Made by a program: the position numbers and the translations under genes. Of a DNA stretch of 64,000 nt, positions 14,113 to 17,869 are shown one piece after another (position 1 is the first letter of the stretch; each line of letters begins with the position of its first letter). Source of the stretch: Oxalobacteraceae bacterium (GTDB lineage: Bacteria; Pseudomonadota; Gammaproteobacteria; Burkholderiales; Burkholderiaceae_D); the NCBI GenBank assembly GCA_025352145.1, contig JANXTY010000012.1, forward strand, positions 1 to 64,000, in the 5' to 3' direction. The notes beneath the pieces were generated by a model that ran no database searches, was not told the DNA's origin, and worked only from the letters and a program-made list of their open reading frames with translations.

Positions 14113-14155
14113 ACGATTCTTCCAATCGAAAAAAGGAAGGCAAAAAAACGAAGAG

Positions 14156-14193
14156 AAAAATAAAACGGGGCAGTGGTGATGACCTCTGCCCCG
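14156..14193 (-). terminator. Terminator/attenuator hairpin between rplT and pheS
   Basis: Read on the minus strand, CGGGGCAG pairs perfectly with CTGCCCCG across a 12-base loop (8 bp, six of them G-C), and TTTTATTTTT follows at once. This is a textbook intrinsic terminator placed inside the operon. In E. coli the same position carries the pheM attenuator. Here no Phe-rich leader peptide precedes the hairpin, so it may simply lower read-through into pheST. Confidence 0.75.
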
Positions 14194-14239
14194 CCAATTT
14201 CCTTACATCACACCAAAGTGACATAGGCAACCACAACAT

Positions 14240-15556: not shown

Positions 15557-17464
15557 TCAGGCTCTGGTCTTGACCTCATCACTGAGGCGTTTCACCAGTG
15601 CATCAATCGGCATTACACCAAGATCAACATTGCCTCGCGCTCGCACGGCCACTGTATTTGCATCCCGCTCTTTATCACCTACCACAATAATATAGGGCAA
15701 TTTCTGCAAAGAATGCTCGCGTATTTTAAAGGTAATTTTCTCGTTACGCAAATCTACTTGTGCCCTAAACCCTTGTTTTTTCAGGTTTTGTGCAATTTCG
15801 CCGGCATATTCCGCCTGCGCATCGGAAATATTGAGCACCGAAACCTGCACGGGTGCCAGCCACATCGGCAAGGCACCAGCGTAATTCTCGATTAACATAC
15901 CTATAAAACGTTCAAACGAACCTAGAATCGCACGGTGCAACATCACGGGAACTTTGCGCGTGTTGTCTTGTGCAACATACTCAGCATCAAGTCGAACAGG
16001 CATGGAAAAATCGGCTTGTATTGTGCCGCACTGCCACGTACGCCCAATCGCATCCTTTAGCGTGTATTCGATTTTTGGCCCATAGAATGCACCTTCACCT
16101 GGCGAAATTTCATATTCGCAACCGGAACGATTAAGCGATTCGATTAAAGCGCTTTCTGCCCTATCCCATGCTTCATCCGAACCAACACGCTTTTCAGGTC
16201 TGGTAGCCACTTTATAGATCACATCGGTAAAACCAAAATCGGCGTACACTTTTTGCAGCAACGCGGTGAAGGCAACGCATTCGTCGAGTATTTGATCTTC
16301 GGTACAAAAAATATGACCATCGTCTTGAGTAAAGCCACGCACCCGCATCATGCCATGCAGCGATCCAGACGGCTCGTTACGATGGCACTGGCCAAACTCG
16401 CCATAGCGCAAAGGCAATTCACGATAGGAATGCATATTAGAACGGAAAATTTGCACATGTCCTGGACAATTCATCGGCTTCAGCGCGTATGAGCGATTCT
16501 CCGATTCCGTCGTAAACATATTATCTTTGTAGTTCTCCCAGTGCCCGGATTTCTCCCATAAGCTCCGATCTAGAATCTGCGGCGCCTTCACTTCTTGATA
16601 ACCATTGTCTTGATAAACATGGCGCATATACTGCTCAACTTGTTGCCATACTATCCACCCTTTTGGATGCCAAAAAATTAGTCCGGGGGCCTCTTCCTGA
16701 AAATGGAATAAATCCAGAGCACGGCCCAATTTGCGATGGTCACGCTTTTCGGCTTCTTCCAACATGTTCAGATAAGCATCCTGCTCCTCTTTCTTGGCCC
16801 AAGCCGTGCCATAGACCCGCTGCAACATCTCATTTTTCGAGTCACCACGCCAGTAAGCACCGGCCAGTTTCATCAACTTAAAAACTTTCAACTTGCCGGT
16901 CGAGGGAACATGGGGACCACGACATAAATCAGTGAACTTGCCTTCGGTGTAAAGCGACACATCTTGATCGGCTGGAATCGATTCGATAATTTCCGCCTTA
17001 TATGCTTCTCCGATTGACTTAAAGTAAGCCACCGCCTCATCACGCGGCAAAACTTTGCGTGTTACGGGCTCGTCCTTCTTCGCCAGCTCCACCATTTTTT
17101 TCTCAATAGCACCCAGATCTTCAGGCGTAAAGGGACGTTTGTATGAAAAATCATAATAAAAACCGTTTTCGATAACCGGTCCAATCGTCACCTGTGCATC
17201 GGGAAATAGCTCTTTGACCGCATATGCAAGCAAATGTGCTGTTGAATGGCGAATGACATCAAGGCCATCGGCATCCTTATCGGTAACAATCGCTAAATCA
17301 ATATCGTGGTCGATTAAAAAAGAGGTATCAACCACTTGACCATCCACTTTTCCTGCCAATGCAGCTTTGGCAAGTCCAGTACCTATGCTTGCAGCCACCT
17401 GGGACACGGTGACCGGTGCATCGAATTGGCGTTGCGAACCATCGGGAAGTCGAACTGAAACCAT
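15557..17464 (-). CDS. thrS: Threonyl-tRNA synthetase
   Basis: A 635-residue enzyme that charges and proofreads tRNA-Thr. It has the TGS domain ([14 protein letters not shown] onwards), the editing domain with its [16 protein letters not shown] motif and the [10 protein letters not shown] segment, the class II core ([41 protein letters not shown]) and the anticodon-binding domain ([17 protein letters not shown]). The ATG at 17464 is used because GGAG lies 6 bases upstream; an ATG 12 bases earlier overlaps that site. A Thr-rich leader ORF and a terminator precede it, so attenuation by charged tRNA-Thr is likely. It heads the operon. Confidence 0.97.
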
Positions 17465-17530
17465 TTTGATCTCCATATCAGCATCGAGAAATGATGCTGA
17501 GTTTTGAAATAACTTTAAAAAATCCAGACG

Positions 17531-17558
17531 AAAAAAAACGCGAACTAGCCGCGCTTCT
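17531..17558 (-). terminator. Terminator of the thrS leader (candidate attenuator)
   Basis: On the minus strand GAAGCGCG can pair with CGCGTTTT around a 7-base GCTAGTT loop, and the U tract continues. This gives an intrinsic terminator between the leader ORF and thrS. The loop and 3' arm can pair instead with upstream leader sequence. CTAGCC (17586-17581) matches GGCTAG (17550-17545), and CGCGAACTA (17620-17612) matches TAGTTCGCG (17547-17539). Mutually exclusive folds of this sort are the hallmark of attenuators. Confidence 0.65.
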
Positions 17559-17582
17559 AATACACCAACGAGAAAATCCAGG

Positions 17583-17627
17583 CTAGGGCAGATTCAAAAA
17601 CAGCACGGTGGTAGTTCGCGGTGTCAT
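17583..17627 (-). CDS. Thr-rich leader peptide upstream of thrS
   Basis: A 14-codon ORF reading [14 protein letters not shown], with threonine at position 2 and three consecutive threonine codons at 5-7 (ACT ACC ACC). AAAGG lies about 10 bases before the ATG. It ends 25 bases before the terminator hairpin and about 120 bases before thrS. A ribosome stalled on the Thr codons would leave CTAGCC free to pair with the terminator loop, allowing read-through. A ribosome that reaches the TAG covers CTAGCC and lets the terminator form. The arrangement is seen directly; the regulation is inference from classical attenuators. E. coli thrS is instead controlled by a translational operator. Confidence 0.65.
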
Positions 17628-17869
17628 AACCAGATGCCTTTCTCGTTCTTAAAAAATAATTAGCCTAGGAAATCGCGTTCAAATCAACTACAAGGCTTGC
17701 ATAATCGTGAAACTATACCAGATAAAAAGCAGCGCTCATAGGATTAGCATTGTTCATTCACGGACAAAACAATGAATAACTTTCCGATCAATGGGCACGC
17801 TGCATGTTCTCCCACTACAATTTTTCATATTTTTTAAACCGGGCTTTTCCATTAAACAGCTCTACTGCC
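17628..17869. other. Spacer between radA end and thrS leader
   Basis: About 240 bases, AT-rich toward the thrS side. It should hold the promoter of the thrS operon, which runs on the minus strand. A weak pair, TTGAAC then TTATTT with a spacing near 17, can be read on the minus strand upstream of the leader ORF. No other gene is seen. Confidence 0.3.

Follow-up and report, generated by a model that had tools for sequence, protein, structure and literature searches.

The leader upstream of thrS

We examined a window of 64,000 nucleotides, i.e. the whole stretch of DNA analysed here, and identified a thrS gene on its minus strand, followed by ORFs that fit the order thrS-infC-rpmI-rplT-pheS-pheT-ihfA; these gene names are putative and were assigned by reading the sequences. 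The thrS start at ATG 17464 is likelier than that of the listed ORF, because a GGAG at 17474–17471 can act as a Shine-Dalgarno (SD) sequence and because this layout is kept in many relatives. Ahead of thrS, the initial annotation had described a 14-codon leader with three adjacent Thr codons and then an intrinsic terminator, all of which were found, on the minus strand (Table 1). The leader ORF has an SD and an ATG, looks translated and carries Thr codons as putative control codons, and the intrinsic terminator lies between it and thrS, both in the window and in 99 loci. A predicted antiterminator, mutually exclusive with the terminator, and a predicted protector helix, P1, were also detected. 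The antiterminator pairs segment 2 (CTAGCC) with segment 3 (GGCTAG), complementary over 6 bp in the window, and is referred to here as 2:3.

Table 1 Features of the thrS leader region in the window
Feature	Position	Strand	Basis or remark
thrS	15557..17464	-	likely start ATG 17464; listed ORF start 17476; full-length relatives 65–91% identical
Leader ORF (14 codons and stop; ATG 17627, TAG 17583)	17583..17627	-	sequence reading; MTPRT kept in relatives
Leader Shine-Dalgarno AGAAAGG, within helix P1	17637..17643	-	sequence reading; GAGCGAGAAAGGC frequent in relatives
Thr codon 2 (ACA) of the leader ORF	17624-17622	-	sequence reading
Thr codons 5–7 (ACT ACC ACC), putative stall site	17607..17615	-	Thr-5 conservation among relatives
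P1 5′ strand, AACGAGAAA..AUCUGGUU, the leader ribosome-binding site	17628..17647	-	swap tests
P1 3′ strand, AGCC.GGAU.UUUCUCGUU, from the leader stop codon onward	17567..17584	-	pairing tests
Segment 2, CTAGCC, putative antiterminator 5′ strand at the leader stop codon	17581..17586	-	pairing tests
Segment 3, GGCTAG, putative antiterminator 3′ strand, in terminator 5′ arm and loop	17545..17550	-	pairing tests
Intrinsic terminator (stem-loop 17558-17534, T8 17538-17531)	17531..17558	-	terminator prediction; found behind 99 leaders

The folding energy of the window's leader is ordinary (z −1.48, and z −0.68 for the part before the terminator), and therefore the case for it rests on comparison. 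When the 64-kb window was searched against Rfam 15 at gathering score, one tRNA elsewhere was the sole match, on which ground a T-box or any other Rfam family at the leader was rejected. Between 16500 and 18500, the minus strand gave no sigma-70-like promoter, and a plasmid search returned no match.

Conservation of the leader within the family

We found thrS in 111 of 116 same-family genomes, and a thrS match in all 40 mixed relatives, weak only in G007 and G009. The DNA ahead of thrS was examined at 109 loci from 108 family genomes, one locus being at a contig edge; G050, G102 and G125, which also have a thrS match, were left out. The leader ORF was present in 96 of the 107 assessable genomes, a count made up of 95 automatically featured loci, including one duplicate (L055, which duplicates genome G014), plus L108 and L109. 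The region taken for L109 was truncated, and L108 fell below the length that the automatic feature step needs, yet its ORF is present; L115 ended at a contig edge. The ORF was absent in the other 11 of the 107 (L009, L010, L013, L045, L046, L047, L053, L054, L076, L081 and L089). A terminator-like hairpin before thrS, with no Thr leader ORF found, was observed in L009, L010, L030, L045–L047, L053, L054, L118 and L120; apparently, such loci have either lost the sensor or represent a state preceding its gain.

Codon 5 encoded Thr in all 95 leaders that were located by patterns of codons 1–4 (ACT in 84, ACG in 11), and it lies outside those patterns, into which Thr-2 is largely built. Among the 91 MTPRT-type leaders, Thr occupied codon 2 in 86, codon 6 in 64, codon 7 in 68 and codon 8 in 29, with all four Thr codons being used at codons 6 and 7. 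Variation was greatest at the third position of codon 6 (entropies 0.93, 1.11 and 1.76), which is a coding signature, less clear at codon 7 (0.49, 1.19 and 1.19). The joint occurrence of A and C was reached by position shuffling in 293 of 5000 trials for codon 6, 3906 of 5000 for codon 7 and 18 of 5000 for codon 8, and by this stricter test of independence the excess is weak for codon 6 and nil for codon 7. The initial annotation had proposed aligning the leaders of relatives and checking whether the Thr codons and stems are conserved: Thr-5 and the stems are kept, whereas the run of three Thr codons has disappeared from some members of the family and from several families outside it.

Codons 2–5 are conserved as nucleotides, third positions included (ACA 84, CCG 88, CGA 89 and ACT 81 of 91), although the counts for codons 1–4 are partly fixed by the locating patterns. 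This near invariance of codons 1–5, seen even where the Thr run is missing, goes beyond what the proposed attenuator explains. At the other end of the ORF, the stop codon shifts frame while the flanking RNA stays alike (e.g. KLWE-TGA-CGCTAGTCG versus ERR-TAG-TCG), so that segment 2 is kept as RNA.

Leaders in other families

The leader and terminator were present in 4 of the 16 relatives from other families that were read first. A covariance model, R1, was built from 73 family leaders, which also formed the alignment set (L007, with a long insert, was left out), and in a search of 399 genomes of the order it gave matches in 241 at E ≤ 0.01, of which many were weak. From the better matches, 78 further loci were taken; 77 came from other families, and the remaining one was an additional match in a genome of the family itself. 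In 74 of these 78, spanning 16 families, thrS lay directly downstream; it was absent downstream in L200, L214 and L215, and one more locus ends at a contig edge. An exact pattern, in which codon 5 is fixed, matched at least 120 loci in named genomes, and thrS was downstream in 118 of 120 among the matches listed; in the remaining two, the sequence continued for only 168 and 201 bases. According to the titles of 80 of these at least 120 loci, they come from Burkholderiales genera such as Massilia, Undibacterium, Janthinobacterium, Cupriavidus, Variovorax and Acidovorax or from unclassified bacteria. A search across the class (274 genomes) gave 14 matches at E ≤ 1e-4, three of them in the order; the 11 outside the order all scored ≤39 bits, and thrS was not nearby in the seven loci inspected.

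In the leaders picked from other families, Thr after Arg (CGA-ACT or ACG) is constant, with Leu or Pro preceding in some, but the picking rule favoured Thr-containing ORFs and Thr after Arg is partly built in, and therefore Thr counts from these families are no test of Thr itself. Some families have Thr runs in another context (SFRTTTTG, FRTTTTT, AVRTTTT and KHWRTTTT), the first three being long and without MTP, others MTPRT without a Thr run (MTPRTCFFLR and MTPRTCKAPEPRR), and no Thr run follows Thr-5 in f38, f46, f43 and most of f34 and f9. As the ORF, the Thr codons, the terminator and the antiterminator recur before thrS in relatives, the arrangement is more than chance.

Pairings between the leader and the terminator

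A column-pair scan of the alignment returned the terminator, 2:3, and pairings of the leader ribosome-binding site with the region after the stop codon. We examined these by a swap test, which is independent of the alignment and compares the duplex energy of a leader's own two segments with that obtained with partners from other genomes. The family set contained 74 non-redundant leaders (99 minus L105, L050, L110 and near-identical rows), and the other-family set 67 of 74 leaders from 15 families that were not used to derive the scheme, skipping L160, L166, L201, L202, L205, L209 and L211, where the rule picked no leader. With the reservation that these statistics, like those from the alignment, retain kinship among the sequences, own partners were favoured for 2:3 (z −3.6, 1 of 5000, in the family; z −4.4, 0 of 5000, in other families), for P1 (z −5.1, 0 of 5000; z −3.2, 1 of 5000) and for the terminator (z −6.9; z −9.1). 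They also beat cross-family averages in 12 of the 15 families for 2:3 and in 10 of 15 for P1.

The controls in the family gave z −1.3 for codons with the middle region, z +0.4 for codons with the terminator 3′ arm and z +2.6 for the upstream region with the terminator 5′ arm, codons with the 5′ arm being intermediate (z −2.9). The corresponding values in other families were −0.6 for upstream with terminator, and −1.7 and −1.8 for codons with the 5′ and 3′ arms. As the protector in the family, a helix between the Thr codons and the middle region was rejected (495 of 5000 swaps; 4% of leaders at p ≤ 0.1). Unlike in the family, codons and middle region co-vary in other families (z −4.0), and therefore a more classical, codon-based protector may act there.

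In the alignment, 87.9% of cells were paired for P1 and the terminator together (reached by 0 of 500 shuffles) and 90.2% for 2:3 (4 of 500), although the covariation score of 2:3 was not above the shuffles (161 of 500 reach it). The outer part of P1 alone was modest (22 of 500 for cells paired and 49 of 500 for covariation). Taken with the swap tests, these comparisons support CTAGCC:GGCTAG as a putative conserved antiterminator at the leader stop codon, and the predicted protector helix of the family, which the initial annotation had missed, is formed by the leader's own ribosome-binding site and the RNA after the stop codon, not by the Thr codons. As the comparisons show, the ORF, Thr-5, the terminator and the predicted pairings 2:3 and P1 are conserved and positioned before thrS.

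Folding models of the proposed switch

Two models were applied, one at equilibrium, in which a ribosome masks part of the full-length RNA and the whole terminator is available, and one at the decision point, in which the RNA ends before the terminator 3′ arm; in both, the named set comprised 78 of the 80 named loci drawn from the at least 120 pattern loci. At equilibrium, the mean probability of the terminator in the family was 0.97 with no ribosome, 0.53, 0.45 and 0.42 when the A site held codon 5, 6 or 7, rising to 0.81 for codon 10 and to ≥0.99 from codon 11 to the stop, and at codon 7 the antiterminator exceeded the terminator in 43 of 74 leaders. Outside the family, this model showed no switch, the terminator winning nearly throughout the other-family and named sets.

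At the decision point, we followed the fraction of the terminator 5′ arm paired upstream with no ribosome, with a ribosome stalled one codon past the conserved Thr, and with a ribosome at the stop. The values, in this order, were 0.41, 0.91 and 0.61 in the family (n = 74), 0.71, 0.95 and 0.74 in other families (n = 67) and 0.49, 0.93 and 0.74 in the named genomes (n = 78); with the middle region shuffled in the family leaders they became 0.71, 0.76 and 0.67, and the difference was mostly gone. The stalled state was above the ribosome-free state in 62 leaders versus below it in 4 of 74 in the family, 43 versus 2 of 67 in other families and 65 versus 0 of 78 in the named set, and above versus below the stop state in 58 versus 5, 38 versus 4 and 40 versus 6, respectively. 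A stall anywhere from codon 2 to about codon 10 gives about the same value, and therefore the decision-point model supports the geometry, not the choice of Thr codons.

The window's own leader behaves differently. At equilibrium, its stalled states were terminated and its ribosome-free state anti-terminated, and at the decision point the values were 0.76 with no ribosome, 0.99 at codon 5, 0.54 and 0.63 at codons 6 and 7 and 0.85 at the stop, which is no clean switch. Its stop region reads TGCCCTAGCCTGG, having drifted away from the common GACGCTAGTCGGG, and with a 2:3 pairing gain of −6.0 kcal/mol, against a median of −7.7, it takes rank 63 among the 74 leaders; P1 is near the family in strength (−16.8 versus a mean of −17.0 kcal/mol). 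By these models, this copy is a diverged and poor member of the set.

A putative attenuator and its alternatives

From sequence comparison, we consider it likely that the leader is a ribosome-mediated transcription attenuator which senses charged tRNA-Thr and controls thrS. The predicted anatomy matches that of an attenuator: the ORF opens with control codons, its stop codon overlaps an antiterminator strand, and a terminator separates it from thrS. A ribosome stalled at the conserved Thr codons would be placed so as to free segment 2. As RNA polymerase makes the leader, a ribosome would begin the MTPRT peptide. If Thr-tRNA is plentiful, the ribosome would reach the stop codon and cover segment 2, and the terminator would form; afterwards, or in untranslated RNA, P1 would pair the ribosome-binding site with the RNA after the stop codon, hide segment 2 and again lead to termination. 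If Thr-tRNA is scarce, a ribosome stalled at Thr codon 5–7 would block the P1 5′ strand and leave segment 2 free to form 2:3 with the 5′ arm of the terminator while the 3′ arm has yet to be transcribed, and transcription would proceed into thrS. We infer that the ORF is translated, that ribosomes stall on it and that read-through is controlled in this way; the control may also reach into the downstream operon. The earlier suggestion that a Thr leader peptide and a terminator control thrS, unlike in E. coli, thus finds support in conservation within the family and beyond it and in the conserved antiterminator at the stop codon.

It might be argued that the terminator merely ends an upstream unit, with thrS having its own promoter downstream and the ORF being incidental. 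Of the 123 upstream regions, 72 do carry a tRNA-Val gene (anticodon GAC where read) ahead of thrS, e.g. L004, L016 and L020, and some genomes have the tRNA-Val and the terminator with no leader ORF. We nevertheless regard this explanation as unlikely: in 9 of 99 loci the gap from the end of the T-run to the start of the thrS match is below 36 nt (minimum 4 nt), too short for a promoter and an SD, and therefore thrS needs read-through of the terminator there. Nor does it give a reason for the conserved leader ORF, SD and antiterminator, and in the window no tRNA lies ahead of the leader, the only one found being elsewhere. The tRNA-Val gene precedes the leader itself in 54 of 99 cases, and therefore its promoter is suggested to drive thrS often.

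An RNA operator bound by ThrRS or tRNA-Thr, as in E. coli thrS or a T-box, would make the ORF secondary and the near-invariant GTTATGACACCGCGAACT a recognition site, which would account for codons 2–5 being conserved beyond coding need, also in families without a Thr run. Yet the Rfam gathering-score search gave no T-box match in the window, Thr-5 is kept using two different codons, and an operator hairpin like that of E. coli was rejected, the window's loop being ATTTCTC and the hairpin loops of relatives, compared by eye, having no recurring anticodon-like NGU before the thrS SD; we hold such an operator to be quite improbable. Least probable, and very unlikely, is the exact scheme of the initial annotation, which had proposed two leader:terminator pairings. 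One, CTAGCC:GGCTAG, has held up (swap z −3.6 and −4.4), but the other, CGCGAACTA (17620-17612) with TAGTTCGCG (17547-17539), is not supported as a conserved antiterminator. It is a perfect 9-bp match within the window's minimum-energy fold, but shows no co-variation in the family (z +0.4) and weak co-variation in other families (z −1.8, 198 of 5000), and the terminator of relatives mostly has TAGTCCGCG, TGGTCCGCG or similar. It also has the wrong sign, because in the window's equilibrium fold it favours read-through of untranslated RNA and a ribosome stalled at Thr-5 would cover it, leading to termination under threonine scarcity.

The attenuator is our preferred reading, and the leader is probably a widespread, little-noticed switch for thrS control in beta-proteobacteria. 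If this is true, ribosomes stalling in a short leader govern an essential tRNA synthetase in many beta-proteobacterial families, and the control perhaps extends to infC, the ribosomal proteins and pheST behind thrS. It would also imply a regulatory swap at one conserved gene, as E. coli uses translational feedback there, and an RNA element lying below any Rfam 15 gathering score; the short ORF would need a corrected annotation, and the leader could serve as a natural reporter of stress from threonine shortage or ThrRS inhibitors. A further reading, which we offer tentatively as possible rather than likely, is that the constant of the order is not the Thr run but the MTPRT cassette, or at minimum its Arg-Thr pair CGA-ACT, which in the family is coupled to P1. 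A lone Thr codon after an awkward CGA would then be a tuned stall site replacing the run, and the thrS switch would be ancestral in beta-proteobacteria, with the tRNA-Val promoter often driving its transcription.

Comparison with known systems

The amino-acid leader-peptide attenuators of Proteobacteria include trp, his, thrL and pheM (before pheST), and Vitreschak et al. reportedly dealt with proteobacterial attenuators in 2004. The thrS leader resembles them in its short ORF with the relevant codons, its terminator, its putative antiterminator at the stop codon and its predicted protector helix. It differs in that thrS is the controlled gene, that the family protector uses the leader ribosome-binding site rather than the control codons, and that Thr-5 after the Arg codon CGA is constant, whereas the Thr run is variable. 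In E. coli, thrS is under translational autoregulation by ThrRS, which acts at a tRNA-like operator on the thrS ribosome-binding site; the gene is the same and the downstream order of the same kind, but here a transcription attenuator is indicated instead. T-boxes sense uncharged tRNA, in this case tRNA-Thr, directly and without a ribosome. A T-box precedes thrS in Firmicutes (PMC2494555). The gene is shared with it, as the uncharged tRNA-Thr signal would be, but the window has no T-box match at gathering score.

For Streptomyces lividans, PMC8079986 describes a predicted thrL before thrS (MKRVRPFLETTPGFVPAR), with a leaderless transcript and no clear terminator. A Thr-containing leader ORF ahead of thrS is shared; the phylum is different and the peptides, compared by eye, are alike in Thr only. 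Among the matches listed from open-licence PubMed Central articles, no report of this beta-proteobacterial thrS leader was found. As far as these listed matches show, the leader is new for thrS in this group; its working principle is ordinary, and what is notable is the depth of its conservation and a protector helix built on the ribosome-binding site.

Additional observations in the thrS region

Directly ahead of the thrS SD, a second stem-loop, TCAGCATC-ATTTCTC-GATGCTGA, lies at 17478-17500 on the minus strand. Many relatives have a hairpin near the thrS SD that differs from this one, and the window's stem-loop possibly exerts an extra control on thrS translation or stability.

The listed infC ORF starts late (ATG 15444). 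Upstream of it and in frame, at about 15495 on the minus strand, ATA GCT ACT GAC AAG stands behind AAAGGAAA, and because of this the infC start is probably the rare codon AUA; infC of E. coli starts at AUU. The same upstream sequence is present in several relatives.

In the gap between rplT and pheS, a T-rich stretch at about 14140-14200 (minus strand) has a 12-residue reading in a frame that overlaps the pheS start. It may be a phenylalanine leader, a terminator run or a product of chance.

Finally, just past the T-run of the thrS terminator, a CGTC at 17530-17527 (minus strand) is common in relatives. It exceeds what a terminator needs and resembles the P1 3′ strand (TTTTTCGTC).
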